Origin: Nitrosomonas sp.
Lineage (GTDB): Bacteria > Pseudomonadota > Gammaproteobacteria > Burkholderiales > Nitrosomonadaceae
Direction of reading: 5' to 3'
Assembly: GCA_020890945.1 (NCBI GenBank)
Contig: JAJHPK010000023.1
Location: 30,015 to 94,014, forward strand
Length of the DNA: 64,000 nucleotides
Both the position numbers and the translations under genes were made by a program. Positions 1-8,004 of this stretch are shown here, piece by piece. Position 1 is the stretch's first letter. Every line of letters starts with the position of its first letter. The notes under the pieces were generated by a model. The model did no database searches. It was not told where the DNA came from and was given only the letters and a program-made list of their open reading frames with translations.

Positions 1-2
1 AC

Positions 3-344
3 TCACCAGAACTCGTCTGTCAGATACGCTACGCCAGTGAAACACGCATGCTTCAGCAATCTGCTACAACCGATCCCTATTCAGCTGCCACAGTGGATTT
101 TGACAACCTTTTCCGCTTTAGAGCTGTCGTGCTGGGCTCACCCGGCCGGATCGGCAACATCACGCTGACGGTGTATGAATTGGCCAAGGAGGCGCCTCCC
201 GTCATTATTCACCAGGTACGATATCAGGCGCCTTTCAACATGAATAATGAAATTCCTACTTTAACGGGCTGGAACCATGTCTACGCAAACTATCTTGGAC
301 GCGAGCTGCGCTATGGCTGCGCACTGAAGGCAGGACAATCATGA
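3..344 (+). CDS. C-terminal part of an unidentified protein, cut by the window edge
   Basis: The frame is open from the first bases of the window, so the ATG at 48 is probably internal and the true start lies outside. About 113 residues are visible and I do not recognise a family. Two segments resemble each other (residues around 'VCQIRYASE' and 'IIHQVRYQAP'), which suggests a repeated beta-rich unit. Its stop overlaps the start of the CapA-like gene in an ATGA junction, so the two are almost certainly co-transcribed. Base composition is clearly more GC-rich than most of the window. Confidence 0.6.
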   Translation, partial: SPELVCQIRYASETRMLQQSATTDPYSAATVDFDNLFRFRAVVLGSPGRIGNITLTVYELAKEAPPVIIHQVRYQAPFNMNNEIPTLTGWNHVYANYLGRELRYGCALKAGQS

Positions 345-1273
345 TCTGCCGCAAGCTCACCAATATTCTGCTGCTGTGCATATTGAGCGCAACCCTTCCC
401 ACCCATGCTGCCGGGCCAGTTGATCCGAGCACTACTGTGCGCATGGTCTGGATGGGAGACATCATGCTGGCCGATGGGCCGGGACGCCTGATCGCAAGAG
501 GTGGCGATCCCTTTCAGCCCTTTGCCTCGCGACTGACTGACGCCGATATTCGGGTGGCCAATCTGGAATGCGTCATCGCCGAAGGCGGTAAAGCACTCAA
601 CAAACCCTGGACTTTCCGTGCTTCCCCAGCTGTACTGCCATTGCTCAGAAGCCATGTTGATGCCGTATCACTGGCCAACAACCACGCAGGCGATTACGGC
701 AAGGAAGCCTTTTCGGAAATGATCACTCGCTTACAACAGGCCAATATGCCTTATTTCGGCGGCGGTATGGATTGGCGTGAAGCTCACAAGCCACTGATCA
801 TCGAGCGCAAAGGCCTGAAAATAGCCTTGCTGGGATATGATGAATTCTTCCCGCGCGTATTCGAAGCTGGCGAGAAATCATCTGGAGTAGCGTGGTCAGA
901 AGATGAGCAGGTTGTGTACGATATCCAGCAGGCACGCAAGCAGGCGGATATCGTCATCCCCTTCATGCACTGGGGTCAGGAACACGAACCAATCGCTAAT
1001 GATCGCCAGCGCGAACTGGCTCGTCTGATGATCGATGCTGGCGCCGATGCCGTGGTGGGCACACACCCGCATGTCGTACAAGATACGGAAACCTACCGGG
1101 GAAAACCCATCATTTACAGCCTCGGCAACTTCATTTTCGACGGTTTTTCATCCATCGAAAATAATACTGGCTGGGTGCTATGGATGGATGTAACGATTCA
1201 GGGCGTGACAAGCTGGCGCGTCGAACACGCCCGTATCGATCAACAAGGCACTCCACACCCGCTAAGCAATTAA
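341..1273 (+). CDS. CapA family (poly-gamma-glutamate synthesis type) exported protein
   Basis: This 310-residue protein starts with a signal peptide of about 24 residues (hydrophobic LLLCILSATL, then THAA). The CapA/PGA_cap metallophosphatase-like fold follows, with recognisable blocks in order: MGDIMLADG near residue 38, NLECVIAEGG, SLANNHAGDYG, HWGQEHEP, GTHPHVVQ and YSLGNFIFD near the end. Family members take part in export or anchoring of poly-gamma-glutamate or other capsule-like polymers, but many are uncharacterised. No capB or capC gene is visible, so the substrate is unknown. The start overlaps the upstream gene by 4 bases. Its GC-rich composition contrasts with the genes to the right. 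Confidence 0.85.
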   Translation: MICRKLTNILLLCILSATLPTHAAGPVDPSTTVRMVWMGDIMLADGPGRLIARGGDPFQPFASRLTDADIRVANLECVIAEGGKALNKPWTFRASPAVLPLLRSHVDAVSLANNHAGDYGKEAFSEMITRLQQANMPYFGGGMDWREAHKPLIIERKGLKIALLGYDEFFPRVFEAGEKSSGVAWSEDEQVVYDIQQARKQADIVIPFMHWGQEHEPIANDRQRELARLMIDAGADAVVGTHPHVVQDTETYRGKPIIYSLGNFIFDGFSSIENNTGWVLWMDVTIQGVTSWRVEHARIDQQGTPHPLSN

Positions 1274-1326
1274 ATTCAAACCAAAGAAAGCAAAAGGATA
1301 TTCACTCTGCTTTTCAGGCTTCGGAG

Positions 1327-2940
1327 CTAAGGAGCTAATTTACCTACCGATTGTGTTCTACTTAAAGGATGCTGTTTCATCAATTGTTGTCGATGTAGTT
1401 CAAGCCGCTTGTCATCAAAAGTGATGTGCATTTGGTTTTGTGCGGCAACTTCAGCAATCTGAAGACGAAACGATTCTGTCCCATTGATGGCCAGGTGACT
1501 GCCGTATTTCTTCATGGCCACTTGTAAAATATCTCTCAAGGCTTCGCGCGATGTATCCGGCAAGACGATGAGCCGTTTGCCGTCATCGCGGATGGTGGCT
1601 GATCCTGTTTTATAAGTGATTGTGCCGATTTTGGTGACCGATTCCACACAATTGCTGTTAATGAATCCATTCTTAAAGTGACTATTAGCGCCGGAGTCAT
1701 CACTGTTTAGCTTAGCCAATATCTGGTTGCCTTTAAATTGACCCACTTTTCTGGATCGTAAAACAGCCAATGCTTCAGAATTACAATTTTTTGCTTCTTT
1801 AGCTAACCAATCCAGCCACCCCATTCTGGAATGACTGGTTTTAGAGTGCTGGTAGGCTTTCAGATAATCACTTTTAATAACTGCTATCGTTGTTTTGAAT
1901 TGCTGGTGTGCAGTTGCATACAATGCTTTTTGAGCGAGTCTTCCGGCTTTAATGCTTTTAATGATGTTACGCTTGAGCTTTGCTTCCTGCTTGGCGCGTT
2001 CAATGAGTTGATCTCTCTTTTGTCGCAATATGGCCCACTGAGTTGTTCGCTGTCTGGCGTTATCCGTTTGTTCTTGCTGGTATCGCGCATAAAGCTTTGA
2101 GGTATCGATTTGCTTCTGAAGTGGTTTGGGTTGATATTGTTTGGCGTTTTGTTGTGACGATTGTGTAGAATGTTGCTTCTCTACAAAAGCACCCAGTTTT
2201 TGAGTTAAATTCCCCTTGGATAGAGAGCGATCAATAGAGCTCGCTTTGACAGCTACGCCATTGTTGGCAACCAATACAAACCCGTTGCCACGTTCCTTGA
2301 TTTCAAGTCCATGTCTTTCAAGAACCTGATGCAAATCCTGCCAGTTGTCCGCGTCTTTGATTACAGTAAGCGCCTCGCACTTGATCCAGCTAAGCAAACT
2401 CTCCACACCGGTTCTGACTTCAATTTCTTGCGCTATTCTGGAGGTTTTATCGCTTTGGGTTTCATGATTAACTGTTGTTAAGCTATATTCTTGTTCGATC
2501 TGTTCACAAAGCTTCGCTACTTTCTTGTAATCATAATAGGGGTTATGGATTGTGAGGTTTTTGGGGTGAATCTTATTGATTGCGATATGGATGTGTAGGT
2601 TATTGGTGTCATCGTGGACTACGCTGATGCGTTGATGAGTATTAAAACCCAAAACATCGCAAAACCTTTCTTCAATGGCATTGAGATCTTCAGGAGATAA
2701 ACGCTCTCCTTCCGGGAAGCTCAGTACCAAATGACTGGTTTTATCTGATTTGGCACGCTTATTCATTTCCTGTGTGTTTTGTATCTCTAGCAATGCAGCT
2801 ATCTGATCATCTGAATAACAGTTCGACACCTTGATCTGACTGACACGCTCACTCTTGTCTTGAGGGTCGGTTAAGTACTGTATCAGCGCAGAGAAGCTGC
2901 TTTTGCGCACTGATTTGATGGGTATGATTTTAGCGATCAT
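1327..2940 (-). CDS. traI: MOBP-type relaxase, RP4 TraI-like
   Basis: This 537-residue DNA strand transferase would nick oriT and pilot the transferred strand. The N-terminal 250 residues follow RP4 TraI closely. The nicking tyrosine is at position 22 (LIQYLTD), a serine/histidine block is near 70, and the metal-binding histidines are H116 and H118 in LHIHIAINKIHP, the same numbering as RP4 TraI. The central part is lysine- and glutamine-rich. The last 100 residues (GTITYKTGSATIRDDGKRLIVLP onward, read in short blocks) match the LPD7-type relaxase-associated domain. RP4 TraI is about 730 residues, so this is a shortened version. It lies 40 bases downstream of traJ on the same strand. Confidence 0.9.
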   Translation of the reverse strand: MIAKIIPIKSVRKSSFSALIQYLTDPQDKSERVSQIKVSNCYSDDQIAALLEIQNTQEMNKRAKSDKTSHLVLSFPEGERLSPEDLNAIEERFCDVLGFNTHQRISVVHDDTNNLHIHIAINKIHPKNLTIHNPYYDYKKVAKLCEQIEQEYSLTTVNHETQSDKTSRIAQEIEVRTGVESLLSWIKCEALTVIKDADNWQDLHQVLERHGLEIKERGNGFVLVANNGVAVKASSIDRSLSKGNLTQKLGAFVEKQHSTQSSQQNAKQYQPKPLQKQIDTSKLYARYQQEQTDNARQRTTQWAILRQKRDQLIERAKQEAKLKRNIIKSIKAGRLAQKALYATAHQQFKTTIAVIKSDYLKAYQHSKTSHSRMGWLDWLAKEAKNCNSEALAVLRSRKVGQFKGNQILAKLNSDDSGANSHFKNGFINSNCVESVTKIGTITYKTGSATIRDDGKRLIVLPDTSREALRDILQVAMKKYGSHLAINGTESFRLQIAEVAAQNQMHITFDDKRLELHRQQLMKQHPLSRTQSVGKLAP

Positions 2941-2980
2941 CGTATTTAAGCTGCTTAAGTCAAAAGGACTATTCCGAAAA

Positions 2981-3349
2981 TTATTTTTTAAGTTTTATGA
3001 TGACATCCAACATCGTGTTTTGGGTATTTCGAATACTGTCCAAGGGCATATGCAATTCTGGCTTGCCAATTAATTTTGTACGTTTGTCGTTGGTAAGCCA
3101 CAGTTTGAGTAATCCACCGAGCCTACCAAGATCACCGTTAATTTTTAGCAGACTATCTACCTGTCTGCTGTCAACAATACTGGGTACTTGATAACCCATG
3201 CCCAGATTGCGCAGGTACTCGGCAACGGTCATTCCGGCGTCCGTTGCTTTATTCTTTATTTCAGCTTCTTCGATTGGCAAAACAGGAACCCTGAGCTTTT
3301 TCTCTCTTCTTTCTTTTTTGATTGTCGTGAGATTCTTTCTGTCAATCAT
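2981..3349 (-). CDS. traJ: TraJ-like oriT-binding relaxosome protein
   Basis: This 122-residue basic protein resembles RP4 TraJ and MobC-type accessory proteins. It has a positively charged N terminus, then a ribbon-helix-helix-like segment (KNKATDAGMTVAEYLRNLGMG, residues about 32-52), then a helical stretch with INGDLGRLGGLLKLWL. RP4 TraJ binds the inverted repeat beside nic and recruits TraI. Here a 16-base palindrome lies beside the nic region, about 60 bases upstream of this gene. The gene is transcribed away from oriT and followed by traI, the RP4 order. Confidence 0.85.
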   Translation of the reverse strand: MIDRKNLTTIKKERREKKLRVPVLPIEEAEIKNKATDAGMTVAEYLRNLGMGYQVPSIVDSRQVDSLLKINGDLGRLGGLLKLWLTNDKRTKLIGKPELHMPLDSIRNTQNTMLDVIIKLKK

Positions 3350-3371
3350 GTCAGTTTTCCTCGAAGAGCAA

Positions 3372-3470
3372 GATCAATGTTGAGCACAGAGTGCGAATAA
3401 GTTGTGGAGGAGATGGCCATCTCCACATATCTTGCCCGGTTGTGTGAGTTTCATAAAGGATACTAACACT
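3372..3470. other. oriT with IncP-type nic region
   Basis: Three blocks match the RP4 origin of transfer as I remember it, in the same order. GTTGAGCAC followed by GTGCGAATAAG lies at 3379-3401. A dyad lies at 3404-3426, with the perfect palindrome GGAGATGGCCATCTCC at 3409-3424 as the likely TraJ site. The nic region TATCTTGCCCGGTTG lies at 3428-3442 (RP4: TATCCTGCCCGGCTG). By analogy the nick falls between 3434 and 3435. A GGATAC block follows at 3458-3463. The site sits between divergent traJ and traK. The AT-rich stretch with A-tracts from about 3470 to 3640 could be the curved TraK-binding region. Confidence 0.8.
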
Positions 3471-3655
3471 ATAATCGATGATTGCAAATAGGTTATTTTC
3501 GTTATATCATCATTTCAATTAGTATAAAAATACTTTAAAGAATCTTCTTTCAACGAAATAACAGTCGCTTAGCAACAAAAAGAAACAGAAAAGAAAGCAA
3601 GAAATTAAAAAAACTGTTTGTACGCCAAGATAATTATTTTTGTGGAAATTGTGTG

Positions 3656-4096
3656 ATGACCAAATCCTTATCCGATCGAATCGCATTTTATGCGGATAAA
3701 AACAAAAGTCCTCCTAAGCAATATTTACCGGCATTCATCGCGTTGAAGCCTGATATTGAGCAGGCATTGAAGGATGGCTGGACGATTCGGCAAATCTGGA
3801 ACATTTTGCACCAGGAAGAAAAAATCAAATGTTCTTATCAATGGTTCAGGACTTTGGTCAATCGGCATATTGGCGAGGACAGAAAGCAGCATTCGCCTAG
3901 TGATCACGTAAAATCGGCAAGAGTGGATAACAAAACCCGAGTATCCGCCATTATCCGAATTCCGCACTACAAGGCTGAAACTTTCGGCAAAGATTTATGT
4001 GAAATCCTTCAATCAAAATTTACCTTCGATGAAGCGCTTAAAGATAGCGCATTGCCGGTGATGGTACGACAAAGATTAACGATTATCCGCAGGTAG
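3656..4096 (+). CDS. traK: TraK-like oriT-binding protein
   Basis: This basic protein of about 146 residues resembles RP4 TraK over its first 75 residues: SLSDRIAFYADK, then KPDIEQALKDGWTIRQIWNIL, then YQWFRTLVNRHIG. TraK binds and wraps the AT-rich side of oriT to help relaxosome assembly. The gene is the first one to the right of oriT, as in RP4. A GTG at 3653 directly precedes the ATG chosen here and neither has a strong ribosome-binding site. The C-terminal half (from about residue 85) is not recognisable from RP4. Confidence 0.75.
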   Translation: MTKSLSDRIAFYADKNKSPPKQYLPAFIALKPDIEQALKDGWTIRQIWNILHQEEKIKCSYQWFRTLVNRHIGEDRKQHSPSDHVKSARVDNKTRVSAIIRIPHYKAETFGKDLCEILQSKFTFDEALKDSALPVMVRQRLTIIRR

Positions 4097-4137
4097 CAGC
4101 TCTTCACCAATATTGAAAATGTGTCTGCAGTTTTAGC

Positions 4138-4563
4138 ATGAACAGCAACAAATTAGATGCGCTCATTGAAAGAATAGTATCGGAACACGGCATTGTTCTA
4201 ACACAGGATGATCCGATATTGATGATGCATACGCTCAATGATGTATTACTCGAACAAAATGAAAAAACTCATGCTGAGCTTCTAAGCAATTACCAGGCGA
4301 CATTGGAAGAGAATTTTAATCGGTGGTGCGAATTTTCGACCAAAAAATCCAATGCCATGATCAGTGCATCCGTGAGTAATGCGCAATTAACACGAGACCA
4401 ATTCCTCGAAAGCTGTATTCAGTTGATTGATGAAAGGATAAAAAGTGGAGAGGGTCAAGAGATTTATGAGCTGACCAGAATTTCCAGGCAGGTGGCTATT
4501 ATCAATTTGTTGGCATCAACATTAATCTTGCTGTCAGTGGCGATTATTTTGATGTTGCTATAA
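4138..4563 (+). CDS. traM: TraM-like conjugal transfer protein
   Basis: This 141-residue protein resembles RP4 TraM. The N-terminal block is ALIERIVSEHGI..LTQDDPILMMHTLNDVLL, followed by a helical, probably coiled-coil middle with NRWCEFSTKKSNAMISASV. A single C-terminal membrane helix (about residues 115-141, INLLASTLILLSVAIILMLL) completes it. Role in transfer is accessory and poorly known. It follows the traK-like gene by 41 bases. In RP4 an ATPase gene, traL, lies between traK and traM. It is absent here, so the module is trimmed. Confidence 0.7.
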   Translation: MNSNKLDALIERIVSEHGIVLTQDDPILMMHTLNDVLLEQNEKTHAELLSNYQATLEENFNRWCEFSTKKSNAMISASVSNAQLTRDQFLESCIQLIDERIKSGEGQEIYELTRISRQVAIINLLASTLILLSVAIILMLL

Positions 4564-4691
4564 AAGTTTTAGTTAGCTATTTAAAGATCGCAATGTATCA
4601 GAAATTAATGAAGCGCAATATGTATGAGTGCAATTACAAAACAAATTCAGTTTACGTGTAAATATTAATAACAGTTTGATGGAGAAAGACA

Positions 4692-5039
4692 ATGGAAAAG
4701 GTAAGCTTACCATTGCCCGCAATTCGCTGTTTATCCAAGAAAGAAGCAGCCAGTTATCTTGGAATCGGCGTTACTCTGCTAAGTGAATTAGACATTCCTT
4801 TTGTGAAACTAGGTCGACGTTGTCTATATGACAGAGTTGATTTAGATAGCTGGATAGAGGAATATAAGCAGTGCGAGCACGGGCGGGCTAAGAAGGAGGC
4901 AATATGGCCCAAACCCAAGAAGAAGTCTACCGGAGACAAGATTCTCGTTTCTGGTGGATTGCAACAAAGCTCCCAAACGGCAAAAGAATACGCCAAAGTT
5001 CTGGGACTGAAAACCGACAAGATGCCGAAGCACTGCTAG
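4692..5039 (+). CDS. AlpA/excisionase-type HTH DNA-binding protein
   Basis: This 115-residue protein has an excisionase-type winged helix-turn-helix in residues about 12-55: LSKKEAASYLGIG, then FVKLGRRCLYDRVDLDSWIEEYKQ. Such proteins act as recombination directionality factors or control integrase expression. GGAGAAAG lies just upstream of the ATG. The C-terminal 45 residues are encoded in a second frame over the first 136 bases of the integrase gene. Related small HTH genes beside this integrase type seem to share that overlap, but this is from memory. It may set integrase expression by translational coupling. Confidence 0.75.
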   Translation: MEKVSLPLPAIRCLSKKEAASYLGIGVTLLSELDIPFVKLGRRCLYDRVDLDSWIEEYKQCEHGRAKKEAIWPKPKKKSTGDKILVSGGLQQSSQTAKEYAKVLGLKTDKMPKHC

Positions 5040-5967
5040 CCAAAATCCGGCTTGAAGCCTTTCGGGACATCATTTCGGTATTAAACCCCAGCGCTCATGG
5101 CAAGAAGCCGTGGTACGGTATCTCACAATCAAAGCGAGTTTACGAAGTTATCGCGATGTAAACCGGATTTGCCGCAAGCTTGATCCTTTTCTAGGTCGCT
5201 TATTATTAGAACAGATTACTGGTGATGTAATTTGGTCAGTTATACAAGGAGTGCTTTCTAAAGGAAATAAACCTGCGACTGTAAATCGTTATTTGGCATT
5301 AATTCGTTGTTTATTGCGAATGGCGCGAGATGAATGGCAATGGATTGAAACTATCCCAAAAATTCGCTTTTTAGCGGGTGAAATGGAGCGTAATCGATGG
5401 TTAACAAGAGAGGAAGCTAATCGATTAATAGCTGTTAGTCCTATTCACTTGGCGGCTTTAATTCGTTTTGCTCTTGCTACTGGCTGCCGTGCTAGGGAAA
5501 TAACTGGTTTGGAGTGGAATCGGGTTGATTTGCAACGTAAAACTACCTGGCTTAACCAAACCAAGAATGGAACACCGCGAGGTGTGCCGCTGAATTACGA
5601 TGCTATCGTTGTTCTTGAAGAGCAACTCGGAAAGCATGAACAGTTTTGTTTTACCTATCAAGGTAAGCCTATTCTCTGGGAAATTACAAACAGTGCGTGG
5701 CATACCGCTCTAGCTAAAGCAGAATTGAAGGATTTCCGATTTCATGATCTTAGGCATACTTGGGCTTCATGGCATCGTCAAGCTGGCACAAGTTGCGATG
5801 AATTGAAAGATTTAGGCGGCTGGAAATCCAGGATCATGGTAGATCGGTATGCAAAGTATGCTACTGAGCATTTACGAGTTGCAGCGGCTAGAATCGAGGA
5901 TGGACGTGGTGGGAATGTTTTGAATCTGTCACGTTTTTGTCACGTTCAAAAAGAAAAAAGGAATTAG
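4904..5967 (+). pseudogene. Tyrosine recombinase/integrase, frameshifted near codon 55
   Basis: The gene starts at ATG 4904 behind a strong AAGGAGG (4893-4899). The first frame encodes the arm-binding N terminus (MAQTQEEVYRRQDSRFWWIA onward) up to about base 5068, then drifts into meaningless sequence and stops at 5161. From about 5071 the next frame reads HHFGIKPQRSWQEAVVRYL and continues without interruption to 5967. One missing base near 5068-5071 explains this. The catalytic half is intact: ATGCRAREITGLEW carries the first arginine, HDLRHTWASWH the H-x-x-R pair, LGGWKS the next position and VDRYAKY the tyrosine. Repaired length would be about 354 residues. Sequencing error or programmed frameshifting are alternatives. 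The gene ends 25 bases from the tRNA-Lys 3' end. Confidence 0.85.
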
Positions 5968-5992
5968 CGTTTGCATAACCCCTTGTTTTAAT

Positions 5993-6068
5993 TGGTAGGT
6001 CGTGGCAGATTCGAACTGCCGACCAACGGATTAAAAGTCCGCTGCTCTACCGACTGAGCTAACGACCC
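5993..6068 (-). tRNA. tRNA-Lys (anticodon TTT)
   Basis: Read on the minus strand, a complete 76-nucleotide cloverleaf can be drawn. It has a 7-bp acceptor stem GGGTCGT/ACGACCT, D arm GCTC..GAGC, anticodon stem GCGGA/TCCGT with loop CTTTTAA (anticodon TTT, lysine), T arm GGCAG/CTGCC around TTCGAAT, and an encoded CCA end. The first acceptor pair is G-U rather than G-C, on the side facing the integrase. The gene is the likely attachment site of the adjacent element, whose end rebuilds the tRNA 3' part. Confidence 0.95.
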
Positions 6069-6489
6069 AAAATTAAAGAAGCGGAATTATAACTGATAAA
6101 CTGAATGATATGAAGTCGTACAATGATACTTAAAGGCCTGAAAATTGAAATGATGTTGATATTGAAATCAATTGATCAAAAGAAGGTCAAAAGAAATTCT
6201 GTAATTATTCCAGCAGTTATGATTAAGTTTTAAGAAATTTTATTCAGTCTTGTAGTGCCGATAGAAAAGTAGTTTAAAACCAATTAAAACGGCAATTACA
6301 AGATGTGCTTTGTGAGAAATGGCATACTTTATAGGACTAAGATCAGCGGAAGGTCCTATATCTTGTTTTAAATAATTCTAGGAAAATGGCATTGTGTTAT
6401 GAGTGTAACTGATTATTTATATTAAAAATTAATTGCGTTTCATGATCCTCACTTATAATTTTTTTGACCTATTTTTAGGAGCATTTAAC

Positions 6490-6701
6490 ATGCCACAAGT
6501 TTTTGATTTGACCACACTCAATGGTAGCGATGGTTTTAAAGCAAATAGCTTTTCTTCTTTAGGTGCTAGTAATGCAGAAGATATGAATGGTGATGGTTAC
6601 GATGATTTAGTATCGGATCATCGGTAATCTTTGATAAAAATACTCTATTTAGTGCAATATTTGATTCGTTGGCTCTCAATGGCAACAATATTTTTCAATG
6701 A
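6490..6701 (+). pseudogene. Remnant of an FG-GAP repeat (integrin-alpha-like) protein
   Basis: ATG 6490 follows a good AGGAG. It encodes MPQVFDLTTLNGSDGF, then an FG-GAP-like calcium motif DMNGDGYDDLV, and stops at 6627 after a short nonsense tail. Shifting frame at about 6615 restores FG-GAP-like sequence (SSVIFDKNTLFSAIFDSLALNG) up to a stop at 6701. Intact relatives are long surface or secreted proteins with many such repeats, so this is a decayed stub of one to two repeats. Nothing similar is seen downstream. Confidence 0.6.
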
Positions 6702-7232
6702 ATTCAATACATAGATGACGCAAATCACATATTGGTAGTAACTGAAAAGTTACCACCTATGCAAATTCAAAATTGACCAAACCTTATAGCGACATGCGTG
6801 CTATCCCACTATGTATAAGTCACCCAGACTGAAATGGTTTTTCTCCCTATTAATTTTTTTGAGCATGGCAATAATGGATTAGAAGTCAGTGGTTTTTTCT
6901 TGTAGCAAGTATTTTACTTTTTCCCGAGATTGGAGTCGCTTAAGTCACAAAACTCAGAAATCACGATGCGCAGGGAACCTAGCTGTATTTGCGTCAACAC
7001 CTAATACCTTACAAATAAATTAGGAATTAAACTGAAATGAGAGATCTGCGTCATCTTGGAAAGATTTCTAGCAATGTTTATCAGCAGTTTCTAGAGAGGC
7101 ACAAAACCAATAGTAAAATATGTATCAAGCTTATAGAAAAAACCACTTTAATTGCTTCATCTATTTCAGTTGAGTAAAACTTTTGTAATTATGCAGAAAT
7201 CTTTTCTAGAAATTAAATAATGGAGTAATACA
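6702..7232. other. Intergenic stretch with no recognisable gene
   Basis: About 530 bases of AT-rich sequence follow the FG-GAP stub. I read it in all frames and found many stops and no convincing protein, RNA or repeat. It may be further decay of the same gene or of an inserted element. The promoter and ribosome-binding site of the next gene (GGAGTAATACA before ATG 7233) lie at its right end. Confidence 0.5.
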
Positions 7233-7652
7233 ATGAAATACTATTACACACCCCTTATCGGATTAGTTTTAATGCTGTATTGCACGTCCTATCTGGCTCA
7301 TGCTGGCGTCAATACTTATATATGCAAAATTTATCAAGCAGTAGAAATGTCTGATGAAGGGCAGATCATAAGACACAAAGGTATTTGGGAATCCATTATA
7401 GGCAGTAGCTTTACGGTAAACCGAGATACTGGAGAGATGATTGGACTTCCTTTTGCAACAGACGGGTGGCTTGGAGATGTGCAAGTTCTTAATCGCGGTG
7501 GAAAAGAGAATTCATACAGAGCAATAGTTCTTTCAGGAAAACCCAATGTCTCAGCCAAATACATTTATATTGCAGAGTATAAAGACAAGTTATCTAAGCC
7601 ATTCTGGGGAAATGGCGACGATCACGTTATCTTCAGCGGACTATGTGACTAA
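7233..7652 (+). CDS. Small secreted protein of unknown function
   Basis: A 139-residue protein with a clear signal peptide (IGLVLMLYCTSYLAHA, probable cleavage after residue 24). The mature part has a single cysteine near the start and one near the end (FSGLCD), which could form a disulfide. It contains short blocks GIWESIIGSSFTVNRDTGEMIGLPF and DGWLGDVQVL. I do not recognise a family. GGAG lies 9 bases before the ATG. It stands alone between non-coding stretches, so context gives no function. Confidence 0.65.
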   Translation: MKYYYTPLIGLVLMLYCTSYLAHAGVNTYICKIYQAVEMSDEGQIIRHKGIWESIIGSSFTVNRDTGEMIGLPFATDGWLGDVQVLNRGGKENSYRAIVLSGKPNVSAKYIYIAEYKDKLSKPFWGNGDDHVIFSGLCD

Positions 7653-8004
7653 CTCAGGCGACATAACAAATTATGAGTCAGACGCACAAGTGTGTTGGTT
7701 ATAGTAATTTGAAATCTGCAGGAATTAAGTGATATTCACCATTCATTTGAACGAATAGAGCCAGAATTGGCTACCTTTTAATTTGATCATCCATATTTTC
7801 TAGTGCCACAATCCACGTTGCGAACAGTGGTTTATAATAAAAATAAACGACTCAAAATGCTTGATATAAATTCAACAATCATTCAATGCGATACTGAGTT
7901 AAATGCACTCATAAAATTTTTTAGGGCAATTTAATCTGATAGGATGCGCTCACTTTTGATGAAATGATTATCTTGTTACTAATAGATATATCGTTGAGGA
8001 GACC
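7653..8004. other. Intergenic stretch before the GGDEF-EAL gene
   Basis: This is 352 bases of AT-rich sequence with no open frame worth calling and no RNA gene or repeat that I can see. The right end carries the ribosome-binding site GAGGAG of the next gene. A short frame ending in FERIEPELATF is too small and unsupported to call. Confidence 0.45.

Follow-up and report, generated by a model that had tools for sequence, protein, structure and literature searches.

The nearest described integrative and mobilizable element (IME) that was found is the IncP island of Brucella suis 1330, Burkholderia glumae and Acidovorax avenae. In the available portion of a review (PMC5704250), it is described as a chromosomal IME-type island of 12.7–14.1 kb located at the 3′ end of guaA, with a tyrosine integrase, a MobP TraI-like relaxase, TraJ, TraK, TrbJ, TrbK, TrbL and RepA, and with IncP helpers proposed for it. 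The element considered here lies at a tRNA-Lys gene of Nitrosomonas sp. (draft genome of 2.68 Mb in 106 contigs, here G000; GenBank assembly GCA_020890945.1, contig JAJHPK010000023.1, here C14) and extends into a stretch of 64,000 nucleotides, C14:30015–94014, which is referred to as the window. On sequence comparison, it is probably a 33.2-kb IME of a lineage derived from IncP-type integrative and conjugative elements (ICEs) that would depend on helpers, the copy present here being degraded. This is regarded as the best explanation because of its att repeats, its gene content, a junction shared with other genomes, the lack of traG after traI, the identity of the elements across species and the presence of candidate helper genes. 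The features of this end of the element are as follows, in window positions; G, C and L numbers denote genomes, contigs and loci.

1327–2940, minus strand: traI, MOBP relaxase (NF041893, 505.7 bits)
2981–3349, minus strand: traJ (NF010451, 138.5 bits, cut-off 134)
3357–3437, minus strand: oriT / traJ leader, inverted repeat, with nic-type core at 3424–3439 (Rfam traJ-II, RF01760, 59.1 bits, gathering cut-off 40)
3653–4096, plus strand: traK′-′traL chimera (profile matches and alignment with relatives)
4138–4563, plus strand: traM (PF11657, 63.5 bits; NF010470, 84.4 bits, below its cut-off of 139)
4564–4691, plus strand: traM-xis junction, 128 bp, common to four TraG-less elements
4692–5039, plus strand: xis, excisionase-type helix-turn-helix gene (PF12728, 29.5 bits, above cut-off; TIGR01764 just under cut-off)
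4904–5161, plus strand: N-terminal part of the integrase in another frame (frameshift; relatives read through in one frame)
5110–5967, plus strand: tyrosine integrase, catalytic part (PF00589, 105.8 bits)
5981–6037, no strand assigned: att copy at the tRNA, 57 bp (contig self-comparison; same end point in G063 and G095)
5993–6068, minus strand: tRNA-Lys (TTT), integration target (ARAGORN; Rfam RF00005, 73.7 bits)

The matches of TraI, TraJ and oriT to NF041893, NF010451 and RF01760 are all above the respective cut-offs, which places this relaxosome with that of IncP Tra1. Residues Tyr22, Ser74, His116 and His118 of TraI, which we take to be the catalytic residues of the relaxase, were found to be conserved with an IncP-1 plasmid relaxase in an alignment of six sequences. 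The oriT is located between traJ and traK, and the Rfam traJ-II model also matches the plasmid of Nitrosomonas sp. sh817 (NZ_CP133084.1), contig C54 of G000 itself, G022:C61 and G029. A search of a set of 85 genomes of the genus gave 40 occurrences of the 16-bp nic-type core, distributed over 25 genomes and always at most 600 bp from the start of a traI; the reversed pattern gave none. Relatives of TraI were detected in 41 of the 85 genomes (E 1e-10, the threshold also used for TraG and TrbE in this set), so the exact core is missing from part of the more distant TraI loci. Folding of the oriT stretch as DNA was no better than that of shuffled sequences (z −0.09), and the structural claim is therefore limited to the inverted repeat that can be seen and the match to the Rfam model.

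A set of 23 proteins of the sh817 plasmid, comprising among others TraF, TraG, TrbB–H, TrbJ, TrbL, TraI, TraJ, TraK, TraL and TraM (TrbK was not among the queries), was used for searches at E 1e-3. Only TraI, TraJ, TraK, TraL and TraM matched C14:1–36200, and no match to traF, traG, trbB–H, trbJ or trbL was present in either this stretch or the window. The locus thus has a relaxase and an oriT of its own and no detected type IV secretion channel, as in an IME, with neither the coupling protein nor the trb operon of a self-transmissible IncP-like ICE inside the element. The preliminary description of the locus had proposed an IncP Tra1 layout of traI-traJ-oriT-traK-traM from which traL, the coupling protein and the mating-pair genes are missing. 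The IncP character of traI, traJ, oriT and traM was confirmed, as was the lack of traF, traG and trb matches, but its "traK" is a traK′-′traL chimera, and the deletion by which traL was lost was observed in the G000 copy alone.

The elements of G000, G022 and G063 (the corresponding stretch of G079 was unavailable) have one identical 16-bp core, which recurs unchanged in ICE-type loci and on the sh817 plasmid. The oriT could accordingly be a mimic on which the relaxase of a co-resident ICE or plasmid acts, the element's own relaxase genes being dispensable. However, TraI is open in G000, G022 and G063 and its catalytic residues are kept in the aligned copies of G000 and G022, unlike SGI1, which is without a relaxase according to the available portion of the review (PMC5704250), and mimicry of this kind is considered improbable.

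Between its att repeats the element extends over 33,238 bp (C14:2814–36051), of which only about 6 kb lie inside the window. Self-comparison of the contig showed a second copy, 97.6% identical, of a 541-bp stretch that has its end in the tRNA; this copy lies at C14:2273–2813, and its last 57 bp (C14:2757–2813) are identical to C14:35995–36051 (window 5981–6037). This att repeat spans from just outside the 3′ end of the tRNA into the anticodon loop. Its left copy lies 27 kb to the left of the window, and there was no second att among the repeats listed for window positions 1–8000. The element is bounded by these repeats and has an integrase of its own, frameshifted here and open in relatives, as would an IME. 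The Xis-type gene and tyrosine integrase first described at the 3′ end of tRNA-Lys were borne out (PF12728, PF00589), four genomes sharing the traM-xis junction, and the mobilizable element proposed there is a reproducible element type; it is not, however, a compact unit of 4.7 kb but one end of a 33-kb island with a broken integrase. To the left of the second att lies the 3′ part of another Lys-type integrase (C14:2246–2740), so that the arrangement is a tandem array, of a type described for IMEs in the available portion of the review (PMC5704250).

The cargo of the island includes iron-uptake genes. A Pfam scan of 10 cargo proteins identified a Crp-type regulator, an ECF sigma factor, FecR, three TonB-dependent receptors, PepSY_TM, Fic, an ExbB-type protein and an RND pump, while ExbD, adaptor, outer-membrane factor and PIN genes were named by eye only. 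The inner end of the cargo lies within the window:

1–1326, plus strand: open reading frame (ORF; 3′ part, 48–344) and PGA_cap gene (341–1273)

Positions 1–1284 of the window belong to a 1.4-kb stretch of the island (C14:29870–31298) with a 99% identical copy on another contig of G000 (C34:14557–15985), where it lies beside trb genes including trbL. Through this stretch the island might move, or have moved, by homologous recombination with a resident conjugative element in an Hfr-like manner and not by its integrase. The att repeats at both ends in G000, G063 and G095 and the location at tRNA-Lys in several genomes point to site-specific entry instead, and recombination of this kind is thought very unlikely as the means of movement.

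An earlier TraI search (E 1e-3) gave matches in 17 of 61 genomes and in none of the 24 outside the genus, and the 37 named records of close TraI relatives comprise 32 of Nitrosomonas and five metagenome-assembled genomes (MAGs) with broader titles. Among the 33 of these 37 loci that reach at least 200 bp past traI (L175, L207, L209 and L210 were dropped for too little flank), traG begins directly past traI in 30. The idea that relatives of the block are channel-less elements in general was therefore rejected, as most carry traG beside traI. The three exceptions are two Lys-type loci, presumed to be G022:C61 (L176) and G063:C18 (L206), and L211, with a truncated traI. An ICE layout, integrase-traM-traL-traK-oriT-traJ-traI-traG-traF, was seen in G029 and G022:C8 at tRNA-Thr and tRNA-Met. 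Both also carry parB, trbB–H, trbJ and trbL, with trbB 37–40 kb from traI; in neither was a distal att detected within the stretch examined (70.6 and 73.9 kb). When the occurrence of the module elsewhere was checked, as had been proposed at first, the block mostly had traG as its neighbour, both on a plasmid and in ICE-like elements located at other tRNAs; four genomes instead have it joined to a tRNA-Lys integrase through one junction.

This 128-bp junction between traM and xis is common to G000:C14, G022:C61, G063:C18 and G079:C15, the other three being 81–84% identical to G000 (BLASTN, nine loci), and had no match in the remaining five loci, namely three Lys-type islands in which xis has no traM next to it and the ICE-type loci of G029 and G074:C171. 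None of the four junction-sharing elements has traG past its traI; on G079:C109, 2.3 kb past traI are without it. The xis genes of G022:C61 and G063:C18 are 94% identical to that of G000, and the G063:C18 element, of 21.7 kb, has att repeats with the same end point. Among 14 Lys-type integrase loci (at least 79% identity, integrase near-whole or cut by a contig end), traM lies beside xis in four and not in six (G034, G084, G032, G066:C21, G095 and G030), while G091, G100, G074:C208 and G025 end too early to judge. It should also be noted that a long repeat-rich ORF with internally similar stretches lies next to traI in G022 (1590 aa in frame on the contig; G022:C61:42–4814, L044) and G063 (2123 aa; G063:C18:48788–55159), and by DNA match also on G079:C109. 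It occupies the place that traG has in the ICEs, and in G063 small ORFs judged by eye to be lipoprotein-like lie beside it.

Three of the TraG-less elements resemble each other far more closely than their hosts do. Those of G022 and G063 are 96.5% identical over 8.7 kb, 97.1% over 1.7 kb and, from the traI side onward, 99.6% over 5.3 kb; that of G079 is 94.2–98.2% identical to G022 and from 92.6% (740 bp) to 99.0% identical to G063. Host divergence was measured over 4.4 kb around cysN, which in G022 is on the same contig as the element, and identity there is 74.7% for G022 and G063, 78.4% for G022 and G079 and 75.0% for G063 and G079. The G000 element is 83–87% identical to the other three, against 74.4–78.9% around cysN. 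With 93–99% identity in the element against 75–78% in the cysN region, the TraG-less form appears to have moved between species, either by itself or by another carrier.

The G000 copy carries two kinds of damage. Residues 17–72 of its traK-like product match the TraK family PF17273 and residues 72–146 match positions 155–228 of TraL. Alignment with seven relatives and the sh817 plasmid showed that a deletion, of 572 bp against seven of these eight and 576 bp against one, fuses both genes in one frame with a stop earlier than in TraL. TraK and TraL are both intact in G022:C61, where TraL has its full 243 aa, and nearly all of TraL is visible in most fetched relatives, which indicates that traL was lost in the G000 copy. 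The integrase is a single open frame of 354–358 aa in relatives; here it is probably a pseudogene, unless the frameshift is a sequencing error. A second, more distant integrase copy in G000 (C23, tRNA-Asn) is also broken, at a different place, the third copy is the 3′ fragment left of the second att, and no intact Lys-type integrase was found in the G000 genome (E 1e-60). With a chimeric traK/traL, a frameshifted integrase and no intact Lys-type integrase elsewhere, the G000 copy has probably lost the ability to move on its own and would be a late, damaged member of its lineage.

Similar decay is visible beyond this copy, as the G063 copy has a truncated trbB (3–175 of 319) and an insertion in traM, and four other broken pieces of the tra family lie in G000 on C76, C102, C62 and C17, with C62 near a tRNA-Thr and C17 near a tRNA-Met, which shows repeated arrival and decay of tra blocks in this genome. 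The TraG-less loci might likewise be dead remnants of IncP-like ICEs that have decayed and are not mobile in their own right. A TraG-less arrangement so nearly identical in three genomes with such divergent cysN regions would not, however, result from decay at each site, and in G022 all genes from traI to traM as well as xis and int are open. That these loci are only remnants is thus held to be unlikely, and a lineage of mobilizable elements is preferred.

Relatives of IncP-like TraG and TrbE are present in all four genomes holding the TraG-less element, with identities of 93% and 94% in G022, 92–93% and 94% in G063, 66% and 88% in G079 and 66% (C54) and 75% (C34) in G000, where these are the sole matches. 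It is plausible, judging from these matches, that TraG and Trb proteins of the same genomes act as helpers. The helpers had first been proposed to be IncP-like plasmids, which is to be widened to IncP-like ICEs or plasmids, including one gene set in the same genome. In G000, C34 carries trbB–H, trbJ and trbL with parB, and C54 carries traF, traG, traI and traK. The TraI frame on C54 has only about 415 aa, as on G070:C2 (418 aa), and the whole is a divergent IncP-like conjugative gene set.

From what is known of these families, the tyrosine integrase, with Xis for excision, would recombine att sites of about 42–57 bp formed by the 3′ half of tRNA-Lys from the anticodon loop outward. The element's TraI, with TraJ and TraK assisting, would nick the oriT between traJ and traK, and transfer would borrow the TraG and Trb proteins of a resident IncP-like ICE or plasmid. 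The lineage may have originated through the fusion of an ICE-type traI–traM block with a tRNA-Lys xis-int module and the loss of traG and trb, the direction of change being presumed. In a more far-reaching version, an IncP-like Nitrosomonas ICE gave rise, by a single swap of integrase and excisionase, to a circulating satellite IME, which kept relaxosome and oriT, discarded channel and coupling protein, took a tRNA site different from those of the ICEs seen, and spread between distant ammonia-oxidiser species on resident IncP-like ICEs or plasmids. This version is put forward tentatively, as we would stop a little short of calling it probable.

Several points weigh against the reading as a helper-dependent IME. 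Two of the three near-identical relatives are, from their presumed record titles, MAGs, and the host divergence rests on one region. Four helper-bearing genomes out of four are a small sample; TraG is found in 48 and TrbE in 37 of the 85 genomes, and the helper genes of G000 are among the most distant (TraG 66%, TraI 39–41%). The neighbour on the traI side is the PGA_cap gene in G000 but the repeat-rich ORF in the other three, and two separate losses of traG are therefore conceivable. A single clade of TraG-less TraI was not supported, although also not rejected: in a tree of 22 rows, two long-branched rows having been dropped, TraI of G000, G022 and G063 did not group freely, and the constrained tree was 14.5 lower in log-likelihood (p-AU 0.086), hence blocks may have recombined. 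Readable DNA past traI amounts to only 5.0 kb in G022 and 2.3 kb in G079, and the G079 element is split over two contigs, its traJ–traK stretch not being on the contigs read.

Target sites were read from 30 fetched integrase loci, of which 11 lie beside tRNA-Lys, nine beside tRNA-Asn and three beside tRNA-Thr, with no tRNA in the short stretch of the other seven. Integrase identity to G000 is 79–100% at the tRNA-Lys loci (100% being G000 itself, the others 79–97%) and 74–78% at tRNA-Asn, with one decayed copy at 67%; the choice between tRNA-Asn and tRNA-Lys tracks integrase identity in the fetched loci. In the tRNA-Asn element of G000 (C23:498–1953, L032), xis and the integrase N-terminus are 96% identical to the C14 element and the catalytic part only 76%.

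Among the best 30 of 75 matches to the tRNA-Lys locus, 29 have any 3′ flank, some of it short; ten of these hold a Lys-type integrase, which in three is a fragment or is truncated at a contig end, and the other 19 lack one. At least six of the occupied genomes have a counterpart that shares their tRNA 5′ flank but has no Lys-type integrase at that site. In the pair G094/G095, the 3′ flank of the unoccupied G094 site aligns with G095 starting at the outer end of G095's second att, about 250 bp being found in G094 alone. The att is thereby shown for a related island without tra genes, the G095 stretch having no match to the sh817 tra or trb proteins. The search for unoccupied tRNA-Lys sites advocated at the outset was thus successful in relatives but not for G000's own flank, as none of the 29 other fetched loci shares more than 150 bp of its 5′ flank. 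None of the 20 regions examined in relatives has a tRNA-Lys near acnA. Lys-type xis-int islands without a tra or trb query match in the 40 kb scanned at each were observed at G095:C1 (tRNA at 1628596) and G084:C1 (tRNA at 686952). The second att lies 8.7 kb away in G095 (46 bp), and in G084 only an 18-bp match was present, at 9.4 kb.

How IMEs originate from ICEs is mostly a matter of conjecture based on remote homology. In the present case one genus, and sometimes one genome, holds ICE-type loci and TraG-less derivatives together with a related conjugative plasmid and with islands that have the same integrase but no adjoining tra block. The junctions are visible, so that both the succession of events and the helper chosen can be tested. 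The element may also be a route for the spread of iron-uptake and other genes among ammonia oxidisers. Full-text searches, which leave subscription journals mostly uncovered, listed no paper whose title or opening lines of the abstract dealt with Nitrosomonas ICEs or IMEs.

Of the known systems compared, the IncP-like ICEs of the genus (G029 and G022:C8) share the traI-traJ-oriT-traK-traL-traM block beside an integrase at a tRNA and have TraI proteins 83–84% identical. They differ in having traF-traG beside traI, trb genes 37–40 kb away, integrases only 41–42% identical and tRNA-Thr or tRNA-Met as site, with no relative of the C14 xis beside the integrase. The sh817 plasmid has a TraI 80% identical, the same nic-type core and the same gene order from traI to traM, but is a replicon typed as conjugative with traG and trb genes. 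IME_Sag2603_tRNAlys of Streptococcus agalactiae, as presented in the available portion of the review (PMC5704250), is likewise an IME in the 3′ end of tRNA-Lys and in tandem with a decayed element, although it is from a Firmicute and the likeness is one of description, not of protein comparison. From the IncP island, with its guaA site and TrbJ-TrbK-TrbL, the Nitrosomonas element differs in its location at tRNA-Lys, its TraM (and TraL in relatives), its size of 33 kb (21.7 kb in G063) and its lack of a trb match, with no TrbJ or TrbL match in C14:1–36200; the two share their chromosomal IME-type organization, a tyrosine integrase, a TraI-like relaxase with TraJ and TraK, and the proposed reliance on IncP helpers.

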